NCBI RefSeq assembly: GCF_024713975.1
Contig: NC_091097.1
Span: 8,612,861 to 8,676,860, forward strand
DNA length: 64,000 nucleotides
Source of the DNA: Paralichthys olivaceus
Taxonomy: Eukaryota > Chordata > Actinopteri > Pleuronectiformes > Paralichthyidae
Direction: 5' to 3'
Within the stretch, counting starts at the first letter, position 1. Every line of letters starts with the position of its first letter. A model generated the notes under the pieces. It was given only the letters and a program-made list of their open reading frames with translations, was not told the DNA's origin and searched no databases. Positions 296 to 39,800 of this stretch are shown piece by piece. The position numbers and the translations under genes are program-made.

Positions 296-8566
<8,271 letters not shown>

Positions 8567-11130: not shown

Positions 11131-11451
11131 ATAGACCACAATTTGTTTGGTGATTATGTTTTGTAGAACAACCTGAAATTGCAAGGGAACTAGTAAAGGT
11201 TTTTCGATAGTAGTGGAGTAGTAGTAGATTTCTCAAACTATACTTGAGTGGAAGGAGGGGTAACAGGAAGTCCACCAAACCAGGAAAAGGGGTGGAGACT
11301 ATAAAAGGGGGTGGGACCCTCACCTGGCCTTTCTTCCTGCACGGAGACACACATGAGGTCAGCTTTGGTTTGGTGTTTTATTCGGTGTTGTGTTTAAAAT
11401 CATGACTTAAAGTGAAACTGTAGAACAAAAGATATGTTAAATTTAAATGTG

Positions 11452-11820
11452 TTAATGGTCCAGTGTGTAAGATTTAGGTGAAAGGGAACTATTTGCAGAC
11501 ATTTAATGTAGAATAATCCCCATGATGTTTTCACTAGTTCGTTTCATCTAAATTGTATGAATTGTAGTTTTCTTTATGCCAGAAAAGGTCCTTTATATTT
11601 AAATGCTTTATATTTACATCGAGAAGGTCCTCTCTATGGAGGCCGCCATGTTTTTTTACATTAGTCCAGACTGGACAAACAAAGCACCTTTTGAGTTTTG
11701 TGACAATTAAAGGCCACGACAGTTTCTTTTTCATGTTTGGAAGGATAGGATGAGGGGTGTTCAGCTGCAACATGCAATTTCAACACTGATATCACTAAAT
11801 TCTACACACTGTAACTTTAA
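11452..11820 (+). mobile_element. TTAA-flanked MITE, solo copy
   Basis: Begins TTAATGGTCCAGTGTGTAAG and ends TCTACACACTGTAACTTTAA, giving inverted termini (TTAAAGGTYCAGTGTG type). The internal sequence (tcctctctatggaggccgcc, gttcagctgcaacatg) matches the copies at 19162 and 22301 in the coiled-coil array. Non-coding. TTAA at both ends suggests a piggyBac-like target, although the terminal bases are not the canonical C-run. Confidence 0.7.
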
Positions 11821-16902: not shown

Positions 16903-17680
16903 TTATAATAATAATAACTGAATTTTATAGCACTTATCTAAACAAAGTTACAAAGTGCTTCACAGGAAAAATAATCAAATCCATGACTAGAAGAGTTTAA
17001 CCATCACATTTGAGCTCTTTAAAACTGGTGGTCGTAATAATAATAAAAAAAATTCAGTTGTACCTTGTTGTAATCAAGTATTTCAGCCTATTAATCACAA
17101 AAACATTGAGAGAGGCCAAAAGTAAATCTGACTGGCTACTGGCTTGTATGGCAGTGCTATGAAAGCCATGTGGCCCCCTCGATAGATAAGACATCATTAT
17201 TATTTGTTTTTAAACTAAATTGAACTAAATACCTACTGTCATAGGAAGCAGAGTCAGAATCTGTCATATTAAACCCATAGACTGTATATAAAGAGATTAA
17301 ACCCAACAGATCCCACAATGAGCAAGCTCTTTGACGACTGTGGAGAGAGAAAAACTTCCTCTTTAGCTGGGAGAAACCTCTGGCAGAACCAGACTCAGTG
17401 TGGGTAATCTGCCTCGACCGGTTGGGGTGAGTGGAGAAAAATGGGGAAAGAGGAGGTGGGTGGCAATTAGGGAGTACAATAGAGAGAGAGATGGGGTGGT
17501 GGGGTCAGGGGAAGGGAGAGGGACTTCAAGAACATCATACGTGAACTCTGTAAGTGTCATTATTGTGGTGCAAGTAATTAAAGGTCGCATGTTAGAAATG
17601 CTTTCCTATAAAAATAAGTTTTGAGCAGTGATTTAAAGATCGGTATTGAGTTTGCAAGCCTAATCTCATCCGGCAGCATT
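16903..17680. repeat. Fish interspersed repeat (retroelement-like)
   Basis: Recognisable phrases of a widespread fish repeat: tttatagcacttatctaaac with caaagtgcttcacaggaaaa, gggagaaacctctggcagaa followed by ccagactcag, and ctgcctcgaccggttggggt, ending in tctcatccggcag. It borders the coiled-coil unit 0 ORF directly; that ORF takes its last codons and stop from this repeat. The short related piece tttattcataaagcaccttt also occurs at about 21890 and 24865 inside units 1 and 2. Confidence 0.5.
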
Positions 17681-18004
17681 CTCTGCAGCCTGCTCTTTCA
17701 GTGCAGTGATTTCTGCAGCCGGAGCAGTGATTTCTGCTGCCTCCTTCCTCACAGCTGTGTTTTGTTCAGTCAGAGCTGCATTATTATCATCCACCTTCCT
17801 TCTCAGAATACTGTACACTGCAGCTCTCTCTTCAAACTTTGCAGCCTTCTTTTGCAGAGCAGTGTTTTCTGCAGCCAGAGCAGCATTTTCTGCAGCTTGC
17901 TCTTTCAGTGCAGTGTTTTCTGCAGCCAGAGCAGTGTTTTCTGCAGTCAGAGCAGTGTTTTCTGCAGTCAGCTCACTCAGCGACTGAAAGTCAAGAATAA
18001 ACAT
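17666..18004 (-). CDS. Coiled-coil repeat protein, unit 0 (short, diverged)
   Basis: Unrecognised family. A 112-codon ORF from ATG at 18004, with a start MFILDFQS equivalent to MYICVFQS in units 1 and 2. It has heptads AENTALTAENTALAAENTAL, one KEQ unit, then the module KFEERAAVYSILRRKVDDNN and AALTEQNTAVRKEAAE, a few more heptads, and a stop. The stop (TGA 17666-17668) lies in the adjoining interspersed repeat, so the coil is cut short compared with the 400-residue sisters. The upstream segment lacks both the ATG (ACG instead) and the GTAAGT donor present in units 1 and 2. It could be a short functional member or a pseudogene. The N-terminus is uncertain because an acceptor-like CAG lies within the first codons. 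Confidence 0.4.
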   Translation of the reverse strand: MFILDFQSLSELTAENTALTAENTALAAENTALKEQAAENAALAAENTALQKKAAKFEERAAVYSILRRKVDDNNAALTEQNTAVRKEAAEITAPAAEITALKEQAAENAAG

Positions 18005-18411
18005 GTAGCAGGTAAAAACACAGTCCCATCCTCAGTTCAGATATATTCAGACAGATTATTAATACATTTTAGTCATTTACACATGACTGCTTTTAAAGTC
18101 TGTAAAACTACTGTAAAGTAAGATGAAGAAATAAAAGATAATTGTGTCTTCATGAGGTATGAAAGTAAAGTTTAACCTGAAGTCTCTCCAGCTGAAAACA
18201 AAACTTTGTCTGTAGAGCAATTCTTCTTCGTGTTGGATAAACACAGGTGATCCAATGTAACAAAGTTGTTTTAAAGTATTTTGGCCGTGAAGCACTGGTC
18301 TACTGACAGTTGTCTGTGACGTTTTAAGGACGTTGTCAAAGAGAAGATTCTCACGCAGCTGTCATCTTCTAATGGTCGTAGAGTCTGATTCTGCTGAGAA
18401 ATGTTTCTCCT

Positions 18412-18421
18412 TTATATATAA
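18412..18421 (-). promoter_or_regulatory. TATA box and upstream CCAAT, coiled-coil unit 0
   Basis: On the minus strand TATATATAAAGG lies about 400 bases before the ORF, with AGCCAAT a short way further upstream (about 18427-18433). An AGATCAAAG-like motif (TCF/LEF type) occurs near 18450. The block is aligned with the same elements in units 1 and 2. Confidence 0.45.
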
Positions 18422-18934
18422 GTTAATTGGCTCTAACCTGTTCTGGCTTTGATCTGAACTGGACTGAAACAAGTGTTACGTGAGGGTTGGATGTGTGGTG
18501 GTTGGATCACTCTTTATTAGGAACAGCAGGATGACGACGGATAACTTTCTCAAGCAGCACTTTACTCGATTCCACACTTCTTAACATTTTTCACTTCCTG
18601 CTTCGCACTACTCACGTGACTGAACTAACCAATCAGAAGCTAGGTCTTCAATTAAGGTGAACTTGAGGGAATCAGAAAGGCAGATTCAACAGACTTAATC
18701 TTAAATGTCTAAAAGATGCACTTTTAAATATTTAAACATGTAAATAATAAATGTGTAACATAAATATGTAAATAGTTAACTAATGTAAATTAAACTTCTG
18801 AGCCTTACAGCTGTCAAATATAAATTAACTTCACTTCTTAACCTTACATTATTATAACATAAATTGTTGCTGCTATCGTTAATAACATATTTGCATCTAC
18901 TATTCTCTTTCTCTCTCTCGTCTTTTCCATCCAG

Positions 18935-18959
18935 CCCCCCCCCCCCCCCCCCCCCCCCC
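18935..18959. repeat. Poly-C tract of 25 bases
   Basis: Uninterrupted C25 (G25 on the strand of the array genes) at the boundary between units 0 and 1. The same position has C7 at 22092-22098 and about C13 at 25066-25078, so tract length varies between units. Confidence 0.9.
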
Positions 18960-19161
18960 ATTTTTTCTCCAGTCACCGACTGGTCAAGGCAGATGTCGTC
19001 CACGTTGAGTTTGGTTCTTTCTTCCAGTTCATGAGGAGTGTTTTTTATTTCATTTCAGTTGTCAGAGCTGTTCATTTTGGGAATTGTTGAGCTAATGTAT
19101 ATTATAATTTAAAAATTTGATTCAATGTTTTTATACATTTTATTTATTATTGTAATTATTG

Positions 19162-19551
19162 TTAAAGGTCCAGTGTGTAAGATTTAGGTAAAAGGGATCT
19201 ATTGGCAGAAATTCTATCTAGAATAATCCTCTTGATGTTTGGACTAGTTCATTTCATCTAAATTGTTTGAATTGTAGTTTTCTTTACCCCAAAAAATGCC
19301 CTTTATATTTAAATAAAGTAGATTTCAATACTTTATATTTACATCGGGGGGGTCCTCTCTACGGAGGCCACCATGTTTTTTACAGTCGTCCAAACTAGAC
19401 AATCTAAACAGCTTGTGAGTTTTTATTACAACTGAAGGCTACCACAGGTTATTTTTAATGTTCGGAAGGGGAGGGTGAGGTGAGGGGTGTTCAGCTGCAA
19501 CATGACACTTCACCACAAGATATCACAAAATTCTACACACTGAACCTTTAA
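19162..19551 (+). mobile_element. TTAA-flanked MITE in unit 1
   Basis: TTAAAGGTCCAGTGTGTAAG at the left and TTCTACACACTGAACCTTTAA at the right, about 390 bp, non-coding, with internal similarity to 11452-11820. Its left end is also the left end of a larger TTAA-to-TTAA block (19162-20059). Confidence 0.75.
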
Positions 19552-19990
19552 ATACACATTTAATGTTTTAATTGATTTTACTGTGTCATTTGTTTGTCTT
19601 TAGATTTAAATCAGTTTGGTCACGTCCTCTGACTCAGAAATCTCTTCTTCACCATAGTCTGTGCATCATTTATATGATTTCTCAAATGATTTTTTACTAG
19701 TTGACAGGGTGTTCAGTTTCCTGAAAGAACTTTGTAATAAAACAAAATTTCTCTTAGTCATGTTTCTGCTCTAATGTTTTTATTTTTATCAAGTGTTGGA
19801 TCATTTTTTCCACTTAAATAAAACATAAGAAGTTTAGACAGAAATATCTTATTCAATATGTCACAAACCATGACTTAAACTAAAAGAAGTATCTTCAGCT
19901 ATTAAAGATAAATTAGCATGAAGAGAAAAAGAACATTTTGCTGTGAGTAGAAACAGAGAAGGTATAGAAAGAGGTGAGTAATAGAAAGAG

Positions 19991-20059
19991 GTGAGTATTC
20001 AGCTGCAACATGATAATTTACCACTAGATATCACAAAATACTACACATTGGACCTTTAA
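19991..20059 (+). mobile_element. Partial MITE (right end only) in unit 1
   Basis: Only the last 69 bases of the MITE family are present (gtattcagctgcaacatg ... cacattggacctttaa). It lies immediately downstream of the stop codon of the unit 1 coiled-coil ORF. Confidence 0.65.
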
Positions 20060-20083
20060 AATCAAAATAATACAACTGCTTTT

Positions 20084-21316
20084 TTACTGCAGTTTTTTCT
20101 GCAGCCATAGCAGAGGTTTCTGCAGCCTGCTATCTCTATGCAGTTTTTTCTGCAGCCAGAGCAGCATTTTCTGCAGCCTGCTTTCTCTATGTAGTTTTTC
20201 CTGCTGTAACTGTGCAGCCTTTTGTGTTGCCTCCTTCGTCAGATTTTCTGCCGCCTGCTTTTTCAGTGCAGTGTTTTCTTCTGCCAGAGCAGTGATTTCT
20301 GCAACCAGAGCAGTGTTTTCTGCAGGTAGAGCAGCATTTTCTGCAGACTGCTCTTTCAGTGCAGTGTTTTCTGCAGCCAGAGCAGTTTTTTCTTTAGCCA
20401 GAGCAGTGTTTTCTGCAGCTAAAGCAGCACTTTCTGCAACCTGCTCTTTCAGTGCAGTGTTTTCTGCAGCCAGAGCAGTGTTTTCTGCAGGTAGAGTAGC
20501 ATTTTCTGCAGCCTGCACTTTCAGTGCAGTGTTTTCTGCAACCAGAGCAGTGTTTTCTGCAGCTAAAGTAACAATTTCTGCAGCCTGCTCTTTCAGTGCA
20601 GTATTTTCTGCAACCAGAGCAGTGTTTTCTGCAGCTAAAGTAGCACTTTCTGCAGCCTGCTCTTTCAGTGCAGTATTTTCTGCAACCAGAGCAGTGTTTT
20701 CTGCAGCTAAACTAGCACTTTCTGCAGCCTGCTCTTTCAGTGCAGTATTTTCTGCAACCAGAGCAGCGTTTTCTGCAGCTAAAGTAGCACTTTCTGCAGC
20801 CTGCTCTTTCAGTGCAGTATTTTCTGCAACCAGAGCAGTGATTTCTGCAGGTAGAGCAGCATTTTCTGCAGCCTGCTCTTTCAGTGCAGCGTTTTCTGCA
20901 GCCTGAGCAGGTATTTCTGCAGCCAGAGCAGTGATTTCTGCAGCCAGAGCAGTGATTTTTGCTGCCTCCTTCCTCACAGCTGTGTTTTCTTTAGTCAGAG
21001 CTGCATTATTATCATCAATCTTCCTTCTCAGAATACTGTACAATGCAGCTTTCTCTTCAAACGTTGCAGCCTTTTGTGTTGTCTCCTTCGTCAGATTTTC
21101 TGCAGCCTGCTTTTCCAGAGCAGTGATTTCTGAAGCCAGAGCAGTGTTTTGTGCTGCCTCCTTCCTCAGAGCTGTGTTTTCTTCAGTCAGTATTGCATAA
21201 TTATAATTCACAATACTGTACACTACAGCTCTCTCTTCAAACTTTGCAGACTTCTTTTGCAGAGCAGTGTTTTCAGCATTCAGCTGAGTCTTTGACTGAA
21301 AGACACAAATATACAT
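20084..21316 (-). CDS. Coiled-coil repeat protein, unit 1 (long)
   Basis: No known family recognised. ORF of 410 codons from ATG 21316. An alternative two-exon model uses ATG 21547 (MNKNCSRNK, 21521-21547), a GTAAGT donor and the CTTTCAG acceptor before 21295, in phase, giving 412 residues. Order: short heptads; a partial KFEERAVVYSI module; a full TFEEKAALYSILRRKIDDNN module (about residues 88-125); then a 24-residue repeat of type KEQAAESATL / AAENTAL / VAENTAL with nine K[EVK]Q units; a TKEATQKAAQLQQEKLH segment; and a tail RESRLQKMLLWLQKKLHRDS read out of the repeat's frame. Composition is almost only Ala, Glu, Leu, Asn, Thr, Lys and Gln. No signal peptide or membrane segment is seen in the ORF. 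It is predicted to be a long alpha-helical oligomer. Could also be a non-functional minisatellite; expression data are lacking. Confidence 0.5.
   Translation of the reverse strand: MYICVFQSKTQLNAENTALQKKSAKFEERAVVYSIVNYNYAILTEENTALRKEAAQNTALASEITALEKQAAENLTKETTQKAATFEEKAALYSILRRKIDDNNAALTKENTAVRKEAAKITALAAEITALAAEIPAQAAENAALKEQAAENAALPAEITALVAENTALKEQAAESATLAAENAALVAENTALKEQAAESASLAAENTALVAENTALKEQAAESATLAAENTALVAENTALKEQAAEIVTLAAENTALVAENTALKVQAAENATLPAENTALAAENTALKEQVAESAALAAENTALAKEKTALAAENTALKEQSAENAALPAENTALVAEITALAEENTALKKQAAENLTKEATQKAAQLQQEKLHRESRLQKMLLWLQKKLHRDSRLQKPLLWLQKKLQ
20212..20960 (-). repeat. 72-bp minisatellite encoding 24-residue coil repeats (unit 1)
   Basis: On the plus strand the period is 72 bases (tgctctttcagtgcag ... 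ctttctgcagcc). Smaller 21-base sub-repeats (ttttctgcagccagagcagtg type) correspond to single heptads. There are nine K[EVK]Q units here against seven in unit 2. The antisense strand is also open through the array. Confidence 0.9.
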
Positions 21317-21520
21317 GTAACAGGTAAAAACACAGTCCCATTCTAAGTTCAGATATATTCAGACAGATTATTAATACATTTTAGTCATTTACACATGTCT
21401 GCTTTTAAAGTCTGCAAAACTACTGTAAAGTAAGATGAAGAAATAAAAGATAATTGTTTCTTCATGAGGTACAAAAGTACAGTTTAACCAGAAGTCTCTC
21501 CAGCTGAAAACAAAACTTAC

Positions 21521-21547
21521 TTTGTTTCTAGAGCAATTCTTATTCAT
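21521..21547 (-). CDS. Candidate first coding exon, coiled-coil unit 1
   Basis: ATG at 21547 opens nine codons (MNKNCSRNK) ending at a consensus GTAAGT donor. The next in-phase acceptor is TTTGTGTCTTTCAG before 21295. Splicing would join SKTQLNAENTAL directly. An intervening AG at about 21420 (cttactttacag) could be an alternative acceptor. Modelled only. Confidence 0.35.
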
Positions 21548-21716
21548 GTTGGATAAACGCAGGTGATCCAATGTAACAAAGTATTTTTGCCGTGAAGCGC
21601 TGGTCTACTGACAGTTGTCTTTGGCGATTTAGGGACGTTGTCAAAGAGAAGATTCGCATGCAGCTGTCTTCTACTAATGGTCGTAGAGTCTGATTCTGCT
21701 GAGAAATGTTTCTCCT

Positions 21717-21728
21717 TTTTATAGAAGT
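21717..21728 (-). promoter_or_regulatory. TATA box with CCAAT, coiled-coil unit 1
   Basis: Minus strand reads AGCCAATTAACTTCTATAAA then AAGGAGAAAC, a good TATA box with a nearby CCAAT motif. The sequence downstream (CATTTCTCAGCAG) is the probable start region. AGATCAAAG, a TCF/LEF-type motif, lies about 40 bases upstream. The whole block is shared with units 0 and 2. Confidence 0.45.
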
Positions 21729-22300
21729 TAATTGGCTATGATCTGTTCTGGCTTTGATCTCAACTGGACTGAAACAAGTTCACACTCTATGAAGTGCTTT
21801 TGTAAAAAGCAGTTGAAAGATATTGCGTTTCTTTGCAAAGTGTAGAGACATGTAGGGTTGACTGCAACATGAATTTGACATGTAAATATAATCACTTTAT
21901 TCATAAAGCACCTTTGAAAACAGTTGTTACAAAGTCCTTCACTAAGAGGCCAAATGAAAACAAGAAAATAAACATGAAAGACAACAATAATGTCATCATC
22001 ATCATAATTATTATATACATTGCTGTCATTAATGCTGTCATTAATAACATATTTGCATCTACTATTCTCTTTCTCTCTCTCATCTTTTCCACCCCCCCAT
22101 TTTTTCTCCAGTCACCGACTGGTCAAGGCAGATGTCGTCCACGTTGAGTTTGGTTCTTTCTTCCAGTTCATGAGGAGTGTTTTTTATTTCATTTCAGTTG
22201 TCAGAGCTGTTCATTTTAGGAATTGTTCAGCTAATGTATATTATAATTTAAAAATTTGATTCAATGTTTTTATACATTTTATTTATTATTGTAATTATTG

Positions 22301-22690
22301 TTAAAGGTCCAGTGTGTAAGATTTAGGTAAAAGGGATCTATTGGCAGAAATTCTATCTAGAATAATCCTCTTGATGTTTGGACTAGTTCATTTCATCTAA
22401 ATTGTTTGAATTGTAGTTTTCTTTACCCCAAAAAATGCCCTTTATATTTAAATAAAGTAGATTTCAATACTTTATATTTACATCGGGGGGGTCCTCTCTA
22501 CGGAGGCCACCATGTTTTTTACAGTCGTCCAAACTAGACAATCTAAACAGCTTGTGAGTTTTTATTACAACTGAAGGCTACCACAGGTTATTTTTAATGT
22601 TCGGAAGGGGAGGGTGAGGTGAGGGGTGTTCAGCTGCAACATGACACTTCACCACAAGATATCACAAAATTCTACACACTGAACCTTTAA
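22301..22690 (+). mobile_element. TTAA-flanked MITE in unit 2
   Basis: Duplicate of 19162-19551 carried along by the tandem duplication, so it is not an independent insertion. Ends TTAAAGGTCC and GAACCTTTAA. Confidence 0.75.
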
Positions 22691-23129
22691 ATACACATTT
22701 AATGTTTTAATTGATTTTACTGTGTCATTTGTTTGTCTTTAGATTTAAATCAGTTTGGTCTCGTCCTCTGACTCAGAAATCTCTTCTTCACCATAGTCTG
22801 TGCATCATTTATATGATTTCTCAAATGATTTTTTACTAGTTGACAGGGTGTTCAGTTTCCTGAAAGAACTTTGTAATAAAACAAAATTTCTCTTAGTCAT
22901 GTTTCTGCTCTAATGTTTTTATTTTTATCAAGTGTTGGATCATTTTTTCCACTTAAATAAAACATAAGAAGTTTAGACAGAAATATCTTATTCAATATGT
23001 CACAAACCATGACTTAAACTAAAAGAAGTATCTTCAGCTATTAAAGATAAATTAGCATGAAGAGAAAAAGAACATTTTGCTGTGAGTAGAAACAGAGAAG
23101 GTATAGAAAGAGGTGAGTAATAGAAAGAG

Positions 23130-23198
23130 GTGAGTATTCAGCTGCAACATGATAATTTACCACTAGATATCACAAAATACTACACATTGGACCTTTAA
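23130..23198 (+). mobile_element. Partial MITE (right end) in unit 2
   Basis: Duplicate of the 19991-20059 fragment, ending cacattggacctttaa just downstream of the unit 2 ORF stop. Confidence 0.65.
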
Positions 23199-23222
23199 AA
23201 TCAAAATAATACAACTGCTTTT

Positions 23223-24290
23223 TTACTGCAGTTTTTTCTGCAGCCATAGCAGAGGTTTCTGCAGCCTGCTATCTCTATGCAGTTTTTTCTGCAGCCAGAG
23301 CAGCATTTTCTGCAGCCTGCTTTCTCTATGTAGTTTTTCCTGCTGTAACTGTGCAGCCTTTTGTGTTGCCTCCTTCGTCAGATTTTCTGCCGCCTGCTTT
23401 TTCAGTGCAGTGTTTTCTTCTGCCAGAGCAGTGATTTCTGCAACCAGAGCAGTGTTTTCTGCAGGTAGAGCAGCATTTTCTGCAGACTGCTCTTTCAGTG
23501 CAGTGTTTTCTGCAGCCAGAGCAGTGTTTTCTGCAGGTAGAGCAGCATTTTCTGCAGCCTGCACTTTCAGTGCAGTGTTTTCTGCAACCAGAGCAGAGTT
23601 TTCTGCAGCTAAAGTAGCACTTTCTGCAGCCTGCTCTTTCAGTGCAGTATTTTCTGCAACCAGAGATGTGTTTTCTGCAGCTAAAGTAGCACTTTCTGCA
23701 GCCTGCTCTTTCAGTGCAGTATTTTCTGCAACGAGGGCAGCGTTTTCTGCAGCTAAAGTAGCACTTTCTGCAGCCTGCTCTTTCAGTGCAGTATTTTCTG
23801 CAACCAGAGCAGTGATTTCTGCAGGTAGAGCAGCATTTTCTGCAGCCTGCTCTTTCAGTGCAGCGTTTTCTGCAGCCTGAGCAGGTATTTCTGCAGCCAG
23901 AGCAGTGATTTCTGCAGCCAGAGCAGTGATTTTTGCTGCCTCCTTCCTCACAGCTGTGTTTTCTTTAGTCAGAGCTGCATTATTATCATCAATCTTCCTT
24001 CTCAGAATACTGTACAATGCAGCTTTCTCTTCAAACGTTGCAGCCTTTTGTGTTGTCTCCTTCGTCAGATTTTCTGCAGCCTGCTTTTCCAGAGCAGTGA
24101 TTTCTGAAGCCAGAGCAGTGTTTTGTGCTGCCTCCTTCCTCAGAGCTGTGTTTTCTTCAGTCAGTATTGCATAATTATAATTCACAATACTGTACACTAC
24201 AGCTCTCTCTTCAAACTTTGCAGACTTCTTTTGCAGAGCAGTGTTTTCAGCATTCAGCTGAGTCTTTGACTGAAAGACACAAATATACAT
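23223..24290 (-). CDS. Coiled-coil repeat protein, unit 2 (long)
   Basis: Sister of the unit 1 ORF: 355 codons from ATG 24290, or a two-exon model with 24495-24521 (MNKNCSRNK) joined to 23223-24269. The N-terminal 190 residues are the same as unit 1 apart from rare changes. The repeat block has seven K[EVK]Q units rather than nine. The 55 missing residues equal one 24-residue unit plus one 31-residue unit (KEQVAESAAL ... AKEKTALAAENTAL). Repeats differ by conservative changes (for example AENTSL, AENSAL), and the ORF stays open, which hints at coding constraint but does not prove it. Function unknown; a long alpha-helical coiled coil is inferred from the heptads. Confidence 0.5.
   Translation of the reverse strand: MYICVFQSKTQLNAENTALQKKSAKFEERAVVYSIVNYNYAILTEENTALRKEAAQNTALASEITALEKQAAENLTKETTQKAATFEEKAALYSILRRKIDDNNAALTKENTAVRKEAAKITALAAEITALAAEIPAQAAENAALKEQAAENAALPAEITALVAENTALKEQAAESATLAAENAALVAENTALKEQAAESATLAAENTSLVAENTALKEQAAESATLAAENSALVAENTALKVQAAENAALPAENTALAAENTALKEQSAENAALPAENTALVAEITALAEENTALKKQAAENLTKEATQKAAQLQQEKLHRESRLQKMLLWLQKKLHRDSRLQKPLLWLQKKLQ
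23350..23934 (-). repeat. 72-bp minisatellite encoding coil repeats (unit 2)
   Basis: Same 72-base period as unit 1 with two fewer units. The flanking single-copy modules are unchanged, so the length difference is confined to the array. Confidence 0.9.
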
Positions 24291-24690
24291 GTAACAGGTA
24301 AAAACACAGTCCCATTCTAAGTTCAGATATATTCAGACAGATTATTAATACATTTTAGTCATTTACACATGTCTGCTTTTAAAGTCTGCAAAACTACTGT
24401 AAAGTAAGATGAAGAAATAAAAGATAATTGTTTCTTCATGAGGTACAAAAGTACAGTTTAACCAGAAGTCTCTCCAGCTGAAAACAAAACTTACTTTGTT
24501 TCTAGAGCAATTCTTATTCATGTTGGATAAACGCAGGTGATCCAATGTAACAAAGTATTTTTGCCGTGAAGCGCTGGTCTACTGACAGTTGTCTTTGGCG
24601 ATTTAGGGACGTTGTCAAAGAGAAGATTCGCATGCAGCTGTCTTCTACTAATGGTCGTAGAGTCTGATTCTGCTGAGAAATGTTTCTCCT

Positions 24691-24702
24691 TTTTATAGAA
24701 GT
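24691..24702 (-). promoter_or_regulatory. TATA box with CCAAT, coiled-coil unit 2
   Basis: Same CCAATTAACTTCTATAAA arrangement as unit 1, at the expected 2974-base offset, with the upstream AGATCAAAG motif also kept. Confidence 0.4.
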
Positions 24703-25085
24703 TAATTGGCTATGATCTGTTCTGGCTTTGATCTCAACTGGACTGAAACAAGTTCACACTCTATGAAGTGCTTTTGTAAAAAGCAGTTGAAAGATATTGC
24801 GTTTCTTTGCAAAGTGTAGAGACATGTAGGGTTGACTGCAACATGAATTTGACATGTAAATATAATCACTTTATTCATAAAGCACCTTTGAAAACAGTTG
24901 TTACAAAGTCCTTCACTAAGAGGCCAAATGAAAACAAGAAAATAAACATGAAAGACAACAATAATGTCATCATCATCATAATTATTATATACATTGCTGT
25001 CATTAATGCTGTCATTAATAACATATTTGCATCTACTATTCTCTTTCTCTCTCTCATCTTTTCCACCCCCCCCCCCCCTTTCATT

Positions 25086-25290
25086 TTTTCTCCAGTCACC
25101 GACTGGTCAAGGCAGATGTCGTCCACGTTGAGTTTGGTTCTTACTTCCAGTTCATGAGGAGTGTTTTTTATTTCATTTCAGTCGTCAGAGCTGTTCATTG
25201 TGGGAATTGTTGAGATAATGTATATAATAATTTAAAAATTGAATTCAATGTTTTTATAAATGTACATTTATTATTGTAATTATTGTTAAA
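25086..25290. repeat. 3' flank of array unit 3 with unoccupied TTAA site
   Basis: Third copy of the flank starting ctccagtcaccgactggtca. At 25286-25289 it has a single TTAA followed by aaggcaacataatac. Units 1 and 2 have the 898-bp element block at this point and then TTAA-aatcaaaataatac. It therefore looks like the empty insertion site. Confidence 0.6.
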
Positions 25291-25313
25291 AGGCAACATA
25301 ATACAAATGCTTT

Positions 25314-25540
25314 TTAGTGCAGTTTTTCCTGCTGTAATTGTGCAGCAATTTGTGCTGCATCCTTCTTCAGAGCTTTGTTTTCTGCAGCCGGCTTTTTCAG
25401 TGCAGTGTTTTGTGCTGCATCCTTCTTCAGAGCTGGGCTTTCTTCAGTCAGAGCTGCATTGTGATCATCCACCTTCCTTCTCAGAATACTGTACACTGTA
25501 GCTCTCTCTTCACACTTTGCAGTCTTCTTTGTAGTTTTTA
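25314..25540 (-). pseudogene. Truncated coiled-coil unit 3
   Basis: An open stretch encodes KCEERATVYSILRRKVDDHN, AALTEESPALKKDAAQ and further heptads, ending QLQQEKLH and TAA at about 25312. It matches the conserved YSILRRKxDDxNAALT module and the coil end of the other units. There is no start codon, promoter or upstream exon; on the upstream side it abuts a Helitron-like repeat fragment at 25544. The stop comes directly after QLQQEKLH, where units 1 and 2 read on in another frame. Confidence 0.55.
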
Positions 25541-25543
25541 AGA

Positions 25544-25690
25544 TTATGAGATAGGATATGTTTCACTGATTTCTCAGATAATAATTAATGAATCTTGAGG
25601 AAAAAAATCAGATGATTAAAGGACTAATATTTATGATCTAGTGAATTAAAATGTGGTGTTATGAGGAGACTGTTGGGCCTTGGGATGGGG
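25544..25690 (+). mobile_element. Helitron-like repeat fragment (3' half)
   Basis: Phrases tttctcagataataattaat, aatcttgaggaaaaaaatca and actgttgggccttgg match the 3' half of the Helitron-like family (compare 46600-46740). The 5' half is missing and replaced by coiled-coil unit 3. Confidence 0.4.
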
Positions 25691-26038
25691 GAGTCAGGAT
25701 GAGGGGATGGTTGAGGGAGAGGAAGGATGAGAAAGGGGATTAGGACAAGATCTGGCCCATAAAGAGAAAACTAGGGAACATCTTCATCCTCTCTTTCTTC
25801 TCTCTCTTCTTCAGTTAATTCCTCTACTTCTTCTCTCTCTCCAGTTTCTCTTTCTTTTCTTGATTCTTCTATTCTTTCTTCTACTTTCTCTCCATTCCAT
25901 TTTCCATTCTCTCCATTTCTTTCAGCTTCAGCTAAAATGATCTGATGTAAAGTACCTGAAGCTCAAAGTTGTGCAGGATCAGGGGTTTTACTTCTTTCTC
26001 CATCTTTCTCTCTTTTCACACTAACAAGTGCATATAGG

Positions 26039-26040
26039 GA

Positions 26041-26070
<30 letters not shown>
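26039..26070. repeat. (AC)n microsatellite
   Basis: About 15 AC dinucleotides immediately beside the decayed SINE. Confidence 0.9.
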
Positions 26071-26073
<3 letters not shown>

Positions 26074-26079
26074 AGTACA

Positions 26080-26198
26080 ACCATCAGGTGCAACTTGTTG
26101 TTCAGTATGTTGTCCAAGGACACTTAGACAAAGGAGTCAGTGTTCGAACCATTGGCCTTCTGATTAGTGGACATGCCTCAGTGAACCATGGGCTGTAG
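26080..26198 (-). mobile_element. Decayed tRNA-derived SINE (head region)
   Basis: Minus strand reads like a fish tRNA-SINE: GTCCACTAATCAGAAGGCCA then ATGGTTCGAACACTG (B-box-like) and TGTCCTTGGACAACATACTG AAC. The A-box part is mutated and no 3' tail is preserved. Confidence 0.5.
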
Positions 26199-30892: not shown

Positions 30893-33800
30893 TCAGCAGA
30901 TCAGCTCCTGCTGTATTTCAGGCCGCGTGGGGAACGGGGTCTCGCTGAAGGAGAAGGCATCGCGGCCCGCCTTTAGTCCACCCTGGCCCGGGCACCCCAG
31001 GAATGAGCCGATCAAGTCCAGCTCCGGGGAGGGGGCCGGGCTCTCTGGCTCTGACTCGGACTGGCTTGTCTCTGGTTCGTCCAGAGACGAGGCTGACCTG
31101 GAGTGGAGGTGCGGGTGGGAGTGGGGATGTGGGAGTGGGTTCAGCCAGGGGTGTTTGAGGCATTCCTCTGCCGTGGCTCTCTTCCTGCACACACAAACAA
31201 AATAACAGTGTGGATGAGTGGAAATTCCAGAAGAGTTTACATAACCGACAATTCGCCTGGATCTTTTGATTCACTCAGACGTCAGCCATATTACTTTTCA
31301 ACATTTGGTTTGGAAAACCACAAATAATAAAATCACTTTTTTGCTCTCAAGATTTTTTCCCCCCTCAGTTTCTCACCGATTACTCAGACACTAGGGAATC
31401 TTCAATCTTTTTCCAGTGACACCACTAATCTGTGGCATTTAAATGATACTGACTGGAGACAGAGGCTGCTGCTACTCTTCATCAACAAATTGTGGTGACA
31501 AATTAAATGCTCCGTGTTGGAGAATTAGGGTTAGAATTAAGTATGACTGCTTGGCTTCCTTTGGAAATCAGCTTAGTTTACCTTCTTCATTTTTTTCATG
31601 GTGACACTTAAAGCTGATGTTTGGGGAAATGTGAGAACAATGATAATATCATATCTTTCAAAATGAGGTGAGCTTGCAACCACATTTTGCAAAAAGGGAA
31701 ATGTCTTCCTGCCTAACTGACGTAAATCTTGTTACCACACATGCTCATTCAGACGTATGCGGATGTACTTCCGTGCAGATATGGACATGACTCACATCCT
31801 CAGTGTGCAGTTTTATCCATAATCAGAGCATCTCATCATCTTCACTGTTCATTTAAAAAACTGCCTCACCTGGGGTTTTTAACCAACAAGGACTTGATGA
31901 AGTCAACAGCCGGGGAAGAGATTCCTTCAAACGTGTCCTGCGAGTAGTCTACATTAACTTGGGAGATGTTGAGGAATGTCTCCTGCTTTTCGTCACCGAG
32001 AAAGGGAGACTCGCCCGTCAGCATGACGTAGGTCAGGACCCCGATACTCCTGATAAAAAGAGAGGAGGAAAAGAAATGAGGCAATTTGTCTTCTTTGACG
32101 GTTGCAGAATCTGAATTGCGACAGTTTGTGGCACAACGGATTTGGTGGACTTCCACAATGTCATGAAGCAAAGATGAGCTCATCATCAAAATTTTAGACA
32201 GAAAAACTGTTGTTTGCATGGCAAAGTGATGATGTCACTGTCCTGAATGTCTTTATTCCAAGAGGTAAAGCACAAACTAAGGGATTTCTGCATTGCATGC
32301 ATTTTAATGAGTGGAAATAGTCTCATTAACTATGCCAGTCAACTTACCACATGTCTGTCGCAGTGCTAATGGGTTCATAGTTCAGGATCTCTGGTGCTGC
32401 AACAAAGCACATGGCTCCCATTAGTCATCATAAATGACACTCAATGAGAAAAGACACAGGTGACACTGGGCATTAAGCAGGACTTACCCACATACTCTGG
32501 CGTACCCAGGATCTCCCTGACTTCTGTGATGTTGTCCATGCGTCTGGACAAGCCAAAGTCCACAATACGAATGTCCCCGAGAGGCCTGGCACTGGTCAGC
32601 AAGACGTTCTGGGGCTGGAGATGTGGAAACATGCACACGTTAGACAGAGGTTCGTTACTACATGTGACTGATGACTATTCAAGGAGCCTGAGGACTGACA
32701 TGTGAGGTCATTAAAGCGCTTGAGGTAACTGGTCTCAAGAGGATCTGGGGTCTGTTTGGTCAGTCAGCGTTCTAGCTGCTCCTCAGGGCTAAGATCATCC
32801 GTTAAGCCTATCAGACGATACTGAAAAACGGTACGGTGTTCCTGCCAAGTAAGTGCCTAATGCATTTTTGTGTGCAAATACTGTGGTATACCATTAACTG
32901 TGCTTCATTCTGGGTCAAACTGGCTTTGAGCCACAGTTGGTTGGAACATATGAGATAAGACAAGCTAACTTCAGGCTTGGGCCACAAAGTCTATCAAACC
33001 ACAGGAGCCTCACACTGTGTTATTAAACACCAAAATGTTTTAAAGTGTCACTCCTGCTAAACCATGGGCTTGGAATATTTGAACTGAACATTTAATTTAA
33101 AACACATGCACTTTTTCAAGGCACATATTCACTTTTGACAGAATTGTATAACACGTAAAGAGAAACCAGGTTCATTTTTTGAGACAGACAACGTCAATGA
33201 TGACGACCTTGTTACCTCAGGGCCCATTAAATAAAACATGATAGGGCAGTGAGGTCCCGTCACAGGCTCATTCCTCGTGGGAACAGGGTCATAACACACT
33301 GAATGAACTGTGCTTGCATAACAGAAATCATATCTCCCCCAGTCTGCCACTCGGGGGAATGCACTGTCCTACATCGCCATATCACGTTTCAGTGCACTTA
33401 CTTTCAGATCCAGATGCACCACATTGTTTCGATGCAGGAAGGCAACCCCATTCAGGATCTGCTTGGCCAGCCGGATCACATCTTTCTCTGTGAAGGCCTC
33501 GTCATTATCAGCCACACACTGGTTGAAGATTTCACCACCGGCGGCGCTGGAGGGAAAGCACAGGAAGGAAAACTGGGAGTTTAGTTTGGCTCACCTTCAT
33601 TTTTGATTATTCATCTTAACTTGTCATAATAAATTTTGCCTTAAACCGTACAAATACACCCTTCCTCCGAGCTTGAAAGTTGACAATGGCGAATTCCAAA
33701 CCATCAGTATGATTGTAGGCCCAAATTATTTCCACTTTCTTTGAGATTATGTAACAGCCTGTCCCCTCATTAGTGCACTTTACCTTGGAGGAACAAAGTA

Positions 33801-36800
33801 CATCCACATCTACAGAAATTATTATAATTTAAGGACCCCAACCTCAGCATGTACTTTCCCCTTCTCAGGAATATTACTGGAGATATATCAGACATATCAG
33901 CTGACAGCAGGCTAAGATAAGGACTTATATGGGACTGATATATAAGTTAAATTAATAAATCAAAAAAAGGGAAGGCAGCAATAGAAGGGGGTTAAATGAT
34001 TCATCATTTAAAAAATTACAGTTTTTAAGTCATAAAAAAGACAGAGAAGGTGCAGAAAAAGGTGGCAGGAGAGAAATGTGTGGTTGGTAATTGGATACTG
34101 TTCTGAATGAGCCCCAGCCTGAATAGTTTTCTGCTCTAAACAACTTACAAGCACTGTATAAAAGGGATTATCCTTCTTTTGGAATTCAGTAATTATACAA
34201 CCGGATGGACTCACATTTTCTGCACATGAAAAAGTCAGAGTCCTGCCCGGTCTTGCTGCACTTGTGAAATAACATTAGGGAAAAAAAGTGGAGACATGGT
34301 GGACTTATGCTGGGAGCTCCGTCAGTCAGATCAGTGCCTGAAGCTGACAGTTCACCCAAAATATGAAAACCATGTGTGGGGGATTTAGATGGCCCACATG
34401 CTTTTTATCTTCAGAGGACAACTTTAGGCCCTGGGCATGTCTCGTTACATAACCGCCCACCCTGAGCTCTTCACTATCCTCAGCTGTGAAAATAGTGCCC
34501 CTGTTTTTTTGTTGGATTTCGAGGATATCCTTGCTTATAATCTTTCCCTTTGCTCCAAACAGCAAAATACTTGACCTGCCACCTACCCTACTTGTTGCAA
34601 ACGTGCTCAAACCCACCAAACAACCCCCAGAGAGTTTAAGAGCAGCAGAGATGGACAATAAAATGTTGCACTTAATCTGCTTATATTGATCTGCTCTGAA
34701 ATCCAAATGCGAGCAAGCCTGGTGTTAGCGTTTTCATTTGGGAGAGGAAATGAAAAATGTGTGTATTGTTAAAAAATGAAATGGGGAAAAAAACCTGTGC
34801 CCCTCGCTGAGTTGGTGTTAAATCAAGAATAACCTTAAATCTGTCAACGTAACGCGGCCTGTGTTTCAAGCTGTCAGCAGAGCGCCCCAGAGGATTTAAA
34901 ATCTTGATAAAATACCATCTTGTTTGAGTTCAACAGGGTGCACACATTCTGAACGAGCACTTAAGAATGATCCTACACTTCCCTGAACTCTAAATATCGT
35001 CTCTGCGTTCTCCCTCCCTCACTCCATCTCTCTATCCTCCCATCAATCCCTCCCTCCAGGAGAGTTAATGTGCTCACTCCTTCAGTGCGTAGGCCCGAAA
35101 TCCTCCCACCAGACCTCAATAATACCCACAAACACGAGAGCAGGCATAAAACAAGCTTACAGACGAGCTTCAATCTTTGAATAAAAAGAAGAAGCAGATA
35201 TAGTTTTCTATCTTTTAGCCATAAACCAAGTCAACCTCCTTTCTAGTTTTTTTTCCCAAAGCTATTCTTGGCTGACCACCAGGCTGGGTGATCATTGACG
35301 TCACCCTCACAGCAGCCTGGCAGCCAGTTCCCACAAGCGTAACCTGTCTGTTGGCTGAATTTTCTGGACAGCGATTGTGTTCCTTTATAGTCCAATTATA
35401 GCCCTGATGGTGAGAACATTAGTGCTCCGGGTTACATTATACGCAAGGAGGGATATTGAAATCGGAATTTACATGAAACATGGCTCTCTAAAAAAAGAAG
35501 AGAAAGCAAATCTAAAGGAGGAAACAGAAAAATCTAATGAAATTCAAGTCAGGCCATATTAAGGAGAGTTGTGCAGAGATGTCCTGCGGTGCATATGTAA
35601 TGAAAAGGAGACCGAATTTTGAATAAATGATACCTTTTGAATATGAAACTCTTTAGATTTACAGAACACCAGGAATGTAAAGGGCTGAATCTGTAGTTTC
35701 TGTAAGTTCATCACTTTCCTTAAGCACACAAACTAATTAGTGTGATCTTCTTTGGCTATATGCACAAAAAAGTGCTCAGAGGTGATGCCTGTTCTTTTTT
35801 CATCAAAGTGACCATCTCTCACATCAGTCACACACTGTGGTTTTCTGTGAAACTGACACACGATAGAGCTACACTTAATCTAAAGATGATTCAAATTCAA
35901 CTTCTTGCCTCCAGTTCACTAAGGATGTGGCTGTGGTTATGATGAGTGCATGTGTTTGTGTCGGCATGTGTGTGCAACACTTTATACGAGCACGGCGCTG
36001 TGCTACTTTTGGGAGTTTTGCTTGCTGCTTACATTTAAACCCACAGGAAATGGAAAATGGTTTGCGATTCTCGAAAACTCATGCTGAGGTCAGACAGTTT
36101 TTGGAGATGCAGCCTCTCAGCCAAAAACTCTCGCTGCTTGGTTACTGCAGTTTTTAAAAAGGACGAATGACACTATTAAAGATTATAACTGACGAAAGAA
36201 TGAACTGACATATAGAACGAAGCTTTTAAAATTGCTAAAATATCATGCATGTGCAGGCCGCAGCTCCATTTGGCAGCTGGAGAGGAACTGCGGACTGGTG
36301 CCGAGCGACCTCCTGCTGTGTTTTCTCTGCAGGCATGCAGGGGTGAACTGCGGTGCTACTTCCCCTTTCACACTTCAGTCAGAGGTCAAACACAGCCCTA
36401 CAGAAAAGGCTTTTGTTCTGCAGAGGCATTCCATGTCTGGGATGCGGACGACTAGCAAGGTCTGGGCAGGAGGCTGCTTCCTGCTGGAGTATAGCGAGCA
36501 GTTCAGAAACAGGGTCAGGCTACCGCGGTTCAAGTGTAATTGTCTGGTGTTATCTCCCTACTAATGAGGCGAGCGAGGTAATAAAGACGCCAAGTGTCCT
36601 TTCAAAATCCCAATTAAAAGCTGTGATTGGATACATCATTGCATTTAACACCAAACCACAACAGAGCAACAGCAGACAGCCGGGACGACCTTTGCTGGGG
36701 TCACTGAACGAGCAGATTCTCTCAGCCAGATCACCTGCATGTCAAAAGACAACAAACCATCCACAGAACTGAGGAATTGGTTCTCACAGCAGCAGAGTTT

Positions 36801-39800
36801 AAAAGACTCATCTTGCCCTATATTGTTTTTTCACACAGTAAGCATAGTGCGCTTATAGCACGTTGGTATTTAAAGTTCCTGTAAACATTCAGTGCAAAAA
36901 GAGAGGTGTCGAGGCTGAGATGAGCAGTGAACCGCAAAGAAAAAAAATTCCATTTAAGGCAGAGTTAGTGTGATAGCAGTGTGACGGCTGTGCATTTCAC
37001 ACATGTATGTTTTTTTTCTTTCTTTGAGGTGACAGGAAATAAGTGACAAGTGAGCAGTTTTCTCAGTAAGTAGCACGTAACACTAAACCAGGAAGTGTCT
37101 TTTTCCCCCTTCAGATCAGATAAAAGCGGACTTACACAGAAAACCATACGCACTGACGTCACGCAATCGTTATTTGATTTCAGATTTTGTCTCCCAATCA
37201 CAGAGAAAAAAAACTTTTCTTATGAAGTAGAAATGACTGATGGAATTATTTGAGGCCAGTTATGGATCCCTCAGACATTCTGCATGAGAAAAACTCCAGT
37301 GTTGAAAAGTTCACATGGAGTAATTAAAGGATTTTTCTGGTGTGGCCCTCGAACGTTTAAAAGGACATTAAATTATCAACATCATTACCTCCACCAAGGA
37401 GGTTATGTTTTGGTCTGTGTTTGTTTGTGTGTTCGTCTGTTATCTGGCAGGATTACGCAAAACCAGACAACCAAGAAACTTGGCAGGATTTAGTATGGGT
37501 CAGGAAAGAACCCATTAAACTTTGGTGCAGATCGACATCAGGGGGTAGATTTTTTTTCCATTTTTGTTTATTTCTCTATTATTAAAGATGAAAAAAATAT
37601 CTGGCATGTTTAGGGGATGGATATTTCTTGAATTTGGTGCAATGTGGTGCAGAAAGTGAATTTAAAAGTGGTTTAATAAGGGAACTCTTGTGCCTTGGTG
37701 GAGTTAAGCACTCTACTAAGGGGCCATTCTAGTTTTCTTTTTTTATGTGTGGCAGGGCATGTTTTATTTTTTCACTAATGCCTACTGGCTTACCACTCGA
37801 GGACGAGGATGATTTCAGTGTTGGTTTCGTAGACCTCGTGCAGGGCCACCACATATGGGTTGGCCTTGGCTGACTCCAGCACAGAAATCTCGTTCAAGAT
37901 GTCCATGCGGCAGTCCTCACCCTTCCGCCGCTTTCGCAGGAACTTGGCAGCGTACTGCTTCCCTGTTGCCTTCTCGATGCACTTCTTCACCACCGCAAAC
38001 TTTCCCCTGGGAAACAACAAAGAGGGGGAGAGAGCGAGAGAGTGATTAGTGAGGAGACAGAATAATTACAACCACACCACTGGCTTTTCAAATAGATTTG
38101 GTCAGCGATGGTTCTGTTCTGCATCCAAGTGGCCGACGGGACCACTGGATCGCATTTAAGCCATTTAAACTGCACACTCGTCGCAGTTTAAACTGCTGTG
38201 AGGCGAAACCTAGATTACAGTGCAGGACGTTTGGAAATTCCCACAGAGCAATGGGTGTAGGCGAGATCAACAGTTCAGAGATAAGAAGTTTAAGCACCAT
38301 CGTTTGAAAAATGCAGACTCTGCTATTGACCGCTGATATGCTCAGCTGAGGAGGCGTCATTGGGCATTCGGTAAAAGATTACGCTCTCTCTCCTCCTTTT
38401 CCCTTAGCCCTCAGGAGGGTCTGACAGCAGGGAGATAAGGTTGACAGTTTTGGCGGCAGCTGCTGAACCGTGGGCAGGGACCCAATAAGGCTGATGCCAC
38501 TTTACAGGTCGAGCAAAAGCAAAGAGATGCAACAGTTTGATTGCTGGATGTTGCAGAACAGAACATAAAACAGAACATCCGCTCTAACAACCTCCTTGCT
38601 GCCATTCATATTTCTGCATTTACACTGATGGATTCACGGGAGGTTTTAAAGGTCAGCCGTGGGTGTGGGCAGGATGTCCGATGTGTGCAGAATTGCCTCT
38701 GTGTCAAGCCGACCACTATCACCAGCCATCCCTCCCAGGCTGATAATGAGGCCTTGTCTGTTTCCCTTTTCTTTACAGCTGACAGCAGCACGGACAAATG
38801 GAATTGTGTCAACGCCTCCGCCCAGACCCTTGGCCAGAGCCTTCCTCTCCTTTTGACAGTCGTACAAAAGCTGACCAGTTGGTTAACTCAGCCGCTCCGA
38901 GACCAGGACCACCCACCTGACCACGGCTGGGGTAGGCCAGGCAGGGGGTCACTGCTGTTACAGTCAGGTTGGAGCCTGAGCAGCATGCCAGAATGGATAT
39001 TGCAGCCTCAACATCTATATCCAATTGTTTTAATAAGCTTTACAAACCAGATGCACTTGGAAAAGCCTTGATAAAATGAACATTGGGTGTGAAAAGATGT
39101 CTCTGCACCCTGCAGAATCTAAATGAAGTGGCCGAGAGGTCCAGTCAGCATGGTGCCAGTCATTTTTCCACAAAGTGTTACTTCGAGCTCACAGCGCTGC
39201 ACAGACCAAAAACAGCAACTGTTCTGGCCGGAGCCTTTGCCCTGTTTTGGCTGCCGCCCCGGCCTGCACGCTGTGGGGCCTGTTCCTTCTCCTTCTGCCT
39301 TTTCCCAGTCTTGAGAATGGTGACGACTCATTGTTCAGAATGAAAAGGCAAAACCCGTCAGAGCCTTTTCATCCTTAATTAGTCAAGTTCAGAGCAGCTC
39401 ACTGTGGGCTGGGAACTACATATGGAGTGAAAAGGAATGACCGCTGGCGACGGAAAGGAGCAACGGGAGGCCTTTCAAAGGCTGACAACAGGTCAGAGGT
39501 TACTAAACATGGCTGTTGTCCAGCCGGCTGTGTTCACACTCTTTCTAGGCTGATGCACAGAATCTCCTGATCATACAAAACATCATGGGGCTTTAATGTA
39601 ATATTTCATGCATGATGTTTCTTTCCTTTCAAGCTCACAGTTATAGCCAAACTCTAATGAACACTTTCTCAAACATCCAAGTACAGTGATGTGCATCAAA
39701 CAGCTCATTTGCAAGGTCGTCCTCAGCCTGTCATCATTCATCAACTTCACTGTTGCACACAAAGCAAACTCCTCTCCAGCAGTGGAGATGGTGATAAGTA

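Follow-up and report, generated by a model that had tools for sequence, protein, structure and literature searches.

A minus-strand array at 17.66-25.55 kb of a 64,000-nt stretch of Paralichthys olivaceus DNA (RefSeq assembly GCF_024713975.1, contig NC_091097.1, positions 8,612,861 to 8,676,860; hereafter the window, corresponding to C5:8612861-8676860 in its own genome) quite likely represents a recently duplicated, coding branch within a large family of coiled-coil genes that extends over many chromosomes. The array comprises four related segments, U1 (17.67-18.47 kb), U2 (20.08-21.79 kb), U3 (23.22-24.76 kb) and U4 (25.31-25.53 kb), with YSILRRK module sites at ~17.8, 21.0, 24.0 and 25.5 kb. 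As judged from their sequences, the copies of the family share a predicted gene plan, consisting of a promoter region, a 5' untranslated region (5'UTR), a nine- or ten-codon exon 1, a ~226-nt phase-0 GT-AG intron and a long coil exon. The window-branch form of this predicted plan could be recognized in U2 and U3 and not in U1 and U4. The array probably consists of real genes rather than repeat junk, and we infer that these genes are transcribed from the TATA region, spliced and translated. The support for coding comes from paralogues elsewhere in the same genome and not from evidence within the window. The preliminary description had depicted a single local array; members of the family occur on many contigs and fall into diverged branches.

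Predicted gene structure of the array

The two minus-strand ATG-to-stop frames reported previously, at 20084-21316 (410 codons) and 23223-24290 (355 codons), were exact, and the MYICVFQ start of the original frame falls inside a predicted intron. In U3, the predicted coding part of exon 1 (24495-24521) encodes MNKNCSRNK from the ATG at 24521 and is followed in phase 0 by a GTAAGT donor at 24494. The predicted intron 1 (24270-24494) is 225 nt long and runs from GTAAGT to CTTTCAG, with the acceptor at 24270-24279. It leads into exon 2 (23223-24269), an open frame that contains a 24-residue repeat with leucine steps of 7/7/10 and ends with a TAA at 23223. Upstream, the TATA box TATAAAAAG (24689-24697) and CCAAT (24705-24709) were present as described before; their putative function is based on their position. 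The coding part of exon 1 (21521-21547) and intron 1 (21296-21520) of U2 are identical to those of U3, and U2 exon 2 (20084-21295) contains 93 + 72 bp more repeat. When the exons are joined in phase 0, the predicted spliced frames contain 357 codons for U3 and 412 codons for U2.

The four minus-strand units with a YSILRRK module could be confirmed, but the promoter block thought to be common to all of them is carried by three. Three copies of the 491-bp block of promoter, 5'UTR, exon 1 and intron are present in the window (100%, 100% and 89.9%), and U4 has none. U1 is a relic in which neither the ATG nor the splice donor is preserved: in its copy of the block (17984-18474) ACG replaces the ATG and the donor is short by 4 bp, and its exon 2 (17666-17983), with 105 codons and a stop, has a shortened 3' end. 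U4 is an exon-2 fragment (25314-25529) that extends from the module to the stop, without promoter or intron. The adjoining sequence at 25530-26100 matched nothing inside the array, while eight short matches were found elsewhere in the window. The C-terminal end of U4 is CTGCACTAA, and the corresponding end of U2 and U3 is CTGCAGTAA. The length of the coil varies in frame, U1 has been lost and U4 is truncated.

Paralogues in the same genome

The genome of the species (588 Mb, 25 contigs, numbered C1 etc.) was searched with P0001, the U3 frame whose first seven residues are intron-derived. At least 118 matches were identified (114 of 231 candidates scored), and the weakest of these may include non-homologues, given the general similarity of coils. 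As a family marker the 5' block is preferable. In a search with this block 40 of 598 candidates were scored, and the copy counts from it are lower bounds. At least 11 close copies with 88-100% identity were identified, three in the window, two at C5:4.62 Mb, four at C19:2.87 Mb and one each on C17 and C3, together with at least 29 further copies of 79-80% identity at C5:25-27 Mb and on C1 and C16.

Other loci showed the same succession, from the promoter and 5'UTR through the nine-codon exon and GTAAGT intron to an in-phase coil exon. A mechanical gene model, defined as an ATG exon, GTAAG[T/C], an acceptor and an open exon 2, fitted 10 of the 11 close copies listed, on four contigs, with exon-2 frames of 234-415 codons; the copy that failed was U1. 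It also fitted 25 copies of a related branch, 23 of which have CWRSS-type tails. Among 20 sampled loci of this related branch 18 were intact; the exceptions were L036, interrupted by an early stop, and L039, for which no model was obtained. Across the aligned intron-bearing copies the exon-1 ATG and the GTAAG[T/C] donor are kept in 10 of 11, U1 again being the exception. Exon 1 reads MNKNCSRNK, MAKNCSRDK or MPKNNCSRDK in the window branch and is MEKINGSGDK-like in the related branch.

Two copies on C12 (L018 4421 and L019 3431) have no intron and contain a single frame of 382 and 420 codons, respectively, that begins at the exon-1 ATG and continues to the C-terminus, which supports both the exon-1 ATG and the in-frame joining of the exons. 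An origin of these copies as simple retrocopies was rejected, since the 5' flank is kept and the gap extends beyond the intron into exon 1 on one side and exon 2 on the other. A third branch (FQSLGQVQPKDSTQRHSCSKSKMLQDLRQ...) was observed on C2, C4 and C7 (L015, L020, L021 and L024); in L015 and L024 a separate lysine/glutamate-rich frame follows, ending FRIFLAKCCNFC, which is perhaps a further exon.

Selection on the C-terminus of the related branch

The predicted proteins of the related branch have the N-terminus SFEQMQSHDTAQNNGCSVTKMLKALRQALLDSKREN in common, followed by a coil that varies in length and by a C-terminal domain without repeats (SLDSSISQLCQVKDDLANMMEEL...FSFLFPCWRSS), which ends in FSFLFPCWRSS. 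A search of the genome with this domain gave 89 matches (109 of 109 candidates scored), three of which have internal stops. Seventy-two lie within C5:25.04-27.38 Mb (L025-L046), a span of 2.35 Mb on the same chromosome as the window, and the other 17 on C1, C6, C8, C9, C12, C16 and C17.

When 10 copies from six contigs were compared, replacement divergence (dN) was lower than silent divergence (dS) in 42 of 45 pairs, with P<0.05 in 23, although, owing to their common ancestry, these pairs are not independent of one another as tests. Between the C5 and C12 copies, for example, 7.5 silent and 6.5 replacement changes were counted (dS 0.138, dN 0.024). These sequence comparisons indicate that the non-repeat C-terminus has been under purifying selection in the related branch.

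Coding evidence within the window

Taken alone, the window does not prove coding. Open frames had been put forward as an argument for it, but U2 and U3 arose by a single duplication, so that their two long frames are one observation made twice. Open length and absence of stops were rejected as proof, because a plus-strand frame over this region remains open across 292 codons and the chance that the 37 events would leave no stop under neutrality is 0.46. Third positions account for 7 of the 37 events (P=0.08). In the non-repeat segments 0-4 stops were found in the plus frames, compared to 3-10 in the other two minus frames. The conserved module, also cited in favour of coding, fared no better: total module differences in the window are 6.5-16.0%, and the difference between U1 and U2 (6.5%) is similar to that of the intron between U1 and U3 (6.3%; 9.8% upstream and 6.5% in the 5'UTR).

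Several observations speak against coding genes in the array. In the comparison of dN and dS between window units, proposed earlier as a check, dN exceeded dS in all six module pairs. Among five close paralogous modules (that of U3 was missed by the pattern) dN was below dS in five of 10 pairs, and among the tails of the close branch in 10 of 15. Near-identity of many copies in the array also means that their open frames do not count as independent. The exon-1 ATG is overlapped by an upstream open reading frame of 39 codons (24521-24633, minus strand). The AlphaFold2 model of U3 has a mean predicted local distance difference test score (pLDDT) of 75 and a predicted template modelling score (pTM) of 0.23. 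To these must be added the shared ancestry of the C-terminus pairs and the omission from that selection test of the C17 copy L054, which contains two stops. At the aligned place in U1 the ATG of the 39-codon frame is absent, as is that of exon 1.

The family could be real and coding elsewhere while the window copies are dying or non-functional, U2 and U3 appearing intact merely as a young duplication. The excess of dN in all window pairs, the broken state of U1 and U4 and the near equality of dN and dS in close-branch pairs would all fit this explanation. Nevertheless it is considered improbable, as ATG, donor, phase and an open exon 2 are kept in 10 of the 11 listed close copies on four contigs, and the tails of U3 and of the copies on C19 and at C5:4.62 Mb are alike. 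The reading as probably coding genes is preferred. A low-complexity array of this kind, which could not be judged alone, became readable after comparison with its paralogues.

The U2/U3 duplication and repeat turnover

U2 and U3 constitute one near-identical tandem duplication of ~3 kb, with an offset of 2,974 bp at exon 1 and 3,139 bp at the spacer. Four mismatches were counted in ~2,480 bp outside the repeat and seven in ~516 bp inside it (Fisher P=0.0008), a comparison in which the repeat alignment is ambiguous and from which 10 mismatches at the outer alignment ends (eight near 18,850-18,878 and two at 22,099-22,100) are omitted. With so few mismatches outside the repeat, U2 and U3 might be two alleles that were placed in tandem by the assembler. 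This is rather unlikely, because the 5' side of U3 continues into U4 via an older spacer copy of 92.4% similarity, and tandem copies are also found on C19 and at C5:4.62 Mb.

The array contains dense repeats of 21, 51, 72 and 93 bp. At the 3' end of U2 (20088-20204; U3 copy 23227-23343), 51-bp repeats with RESRLQKMLLWLQKKLH-type units are read in a frame other than that of the coil, and the same 3' tail is present in the copies on C19 and at C5:4.62 Mb. Length differences in exons (3, 12, 9 (hand alignment), 93, 72 and 102 (by eye)) are multiples of three in six of six cases, compared to one of six for non-exonic differences (11, 4, 4, 1, 6 and 23, alignment-end gaps dropped). The corresponding test, in which the non-exonic differences were taken as 1/5, gave P=0.015, but it is weak since the repeat units are 3n and the protein-guided gaps are 3n by construction. 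Growth from a minisatellite had been suggested for the family; the in-frame repeat changes fit growth of the array but do not demonstrate an origin from a minisatellite.

Between the U2 stop and the AATAAA of the spacer lies an insertion-like segment of ~0.9 kb (19164-20058, strand unassigned, boundaries by eye), which has a copy at 22303-23197 and is absent at U4. At U4 an AATAAA on the minus strand (25267-25272) is located ~40 nt past the stop; its counterparts lie 936-940 nt past the U2 and U3 stops, where further AATAAA are found at 300, 657 and 1035 nt. A 0.39-kb part of the insertion-like element occurs again at 11450-11820 (80%), and its inner 76-bp end is repeated (85.5%). Poly-C tracts of differing length were observed at the duplication junctions (18935-18959 and ~25070-25080).

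Low intron divergence between chromosomes

Intron 1 differs by 1.3-2.6% (3/227 to 6/227) between the related-branch copies on C5, C16 and C1 (L025, L030, L047 and L048), compared to 6-9% for the coding C-terminus. Between C5 and C1, 3 of 227 intron sites but ~10 of 55 silent sites have changed (P=7e-6; silent-site count rounded). For the C9 copy L016 the intron difference is not so low, at 4.4-5.8%. Low intron divergence could be explained by conversion of the 5' part or by a function of the intron.

The low intron divergence could also be seen in a self-spreading repeat, in which the 5' block and the coil exon multiply within a repeat unit or by conversion and the frames are open through youth. 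Tandem units of the related branch at L028, which recur every ~5.4 kb with 96.6% identity and include a PH-domain frame, would be in line with this. As dN is below dS in the C-terminus between copies on separate contigs, and no transposase could be seen by eye inside the unit, spreading of this kind is very unlikely. A hAT-like frame was noticed by eye nearby in L026. The PH-domain frame of the ~5.4-kb units lies on the opposite strand (Pfam PH, 36 bits).

Predicted protein and comparison with known families

The predicted window protein starts with two diverged FEE(R/K)A..YSI modules, followed by 24-residue units like ALKEQAAESATLAAENTALVAENT and by 34 last residues, which correspond to two 51-bp units translated in a different frame. 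The leucines follow steps of 7, 7 and 10 in the repeat array and are spaced irregularly in the N-terminal part and tail. Hydrophobic periods of 3.42 and 3.52 were obtained (ad hoc scale, residues 1-310, no shuffled control). AlphaFold2, run on the single sequence of P0001, predicted nearly all helix (9-149, 156-264, 275-338 and 341-354). As modelled, the window protein has the long helix and the regular hydrophobic stripe that generally characterize a coiled coil.

Pfam returned Shugoshin_N at 41 and 45 bits, above the cut-off of 30, and HALZ above its cut-off for the query P0002. The reversed sequence gave no Pfam match at 0.01, and a plain heptad polymer, which was above the HALZ and ZapB cut-offs, reached 18.3 for Shugoshin_N (below the cut-off); both results would favour a derived member of a Shugoshin- or zipper-type family. 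However, the Shugoshin_N score accumulates with the number of repeats, as two units alone scored 13.3 bits, compared to 29.1 bits for an idealised repeat that was typed in. In the spliced model, the N-terminal 164 residues had no Pfam match at 0.01. The best stretch covered positions 26-44 of the 45 of Shugoshin_N and not the whole N-terminal coiled-coil domain. Shugoshin carries a C-terminal SGO motif, and no SGO-motif family was among the Pfam matches of P0001 and P0002 at E<=1. For P0001 only zipper parts were matched (bZIP_1 37-62 of 64, HALZ 19-40 of 43), without basic region or homeobox. Membership in the Shugoshin family or among the bZIP/homeobox zippers was rejected on these grounds as very unlikely, and the array is filed under no named family.

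The leucine heptad pattern is common to the Pfam zipper and coiled-coil families (Shugoshin_N, HALZ, bZIP_1, TSC22 and ZapB), but the window protein has a generic zipper part and no partner domain. With P0001 no PDB match was found at E<=1. The C-terminal domain matched two Na,K-ATPase beta entries of the PDB at E ~0.8, which were taken as chance, and neither it nor the other branches gave anything above the Pfam cut-offs except the PH frame. No Rfam match was found at gathering scores. No relative was confirmed in viral contigs (51 pattern matches for alignment A1 and 14 for P0002) or in prokaryote genome contigs (50 and 119, respectively), and a literature search for peptide strings of the family yielded no paper. 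Going by the Pfam, PDB and literature searches alone, the family is apparently unnamed, in agreement with the earlier proposal of a coiled-coil gene family that lacks a named match, and it may well carry automatic names in fish annotations.

An Ala-rich helix is shared with the type I fish antifreeze proteins, which have an 11-residue threonine spacing and no leucine zipper, unlike the window protein; identity with them was rejected on this spacing. Chicken BG genes also form an expanding multigene family with coiled-coil parts (a heptad tail), but they are butyrophilin homologues with other domains, none of which was found here. The codfish antifreeze glycoprotein genes are described as having 9-bp Thr-Ala/Pro-Ala units that encode a secreted polyprotein and a reported origin from non-coding DNA (PMC8622921). 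They resemble the present family in their repetitive coding exon, imperfect 3n repeats, slippage and clusters of intact and truncated members, and differ from the Leu-bearing helix, 7/10-residue units and far larger family found here (PMC8622921).

A possible mode of family growth

The window-branch tail is a basic amphipathic Leu/Lys/Arg segment, and the lysine/glutamate-rich tail of the related branch ends with FSFLFPCWRSS (polybasic, hydrophobic, with one Cys). Both tail types would be suited to membrane attachment. The helical rod might self-associate via its Leu-lined face, with a length set by the number of repeats and little constraint on the other coil residues, and the tail would tether the rod; a role as tethered spacer or scaffold is a guess. 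Duplication would enlarge the tandem clusters, that of the window holding two intact copies (U2 and U3) and two relics.

As a tentative proposal, for which we have clearly less confidence than for the coding reading, one conserved 5' cassette of promoter, 5'UTR, leader exon and intron may drive many repetitive rod exons. The cassette would be conserved, or homogenised from one chromosome to another, to a greater degree than silent coding sites, and rod length and tail would be remade by in-frame repeat turnover and, in one branch, by second-frame reading; one branch would number at least 70 copies in tandem within 2.35 Mb. As intact, duplicated, intron-less and broken copies are found together, the growth of a repetitive protein and the homogenising of a 5' cassette become directly testable. 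If true, so large a family with no counterpart in Pfam or PDB would represent a sizeable unannotated share of a vertebrate proteome.

Surroundings of the array

At 17000-17670, where the U1 coil ends, the sequence resembles the 3' tail of a retroelement that is common in fish. An open reading frame at ~63120 on the plus strand is presumably short-chain dehydrogenase-like. To the left of the array, in a scan of 1-10 kb, the best stretches for exons of a V-type ATPase 116-kDa subunit were found at ~3460-6320, distributed over all three frames of the plus strand. To its right, at ~31870-38010 on the minus strand, lie exons of a STK17/DAPK-type kinase, with STK17A as the best solved match.

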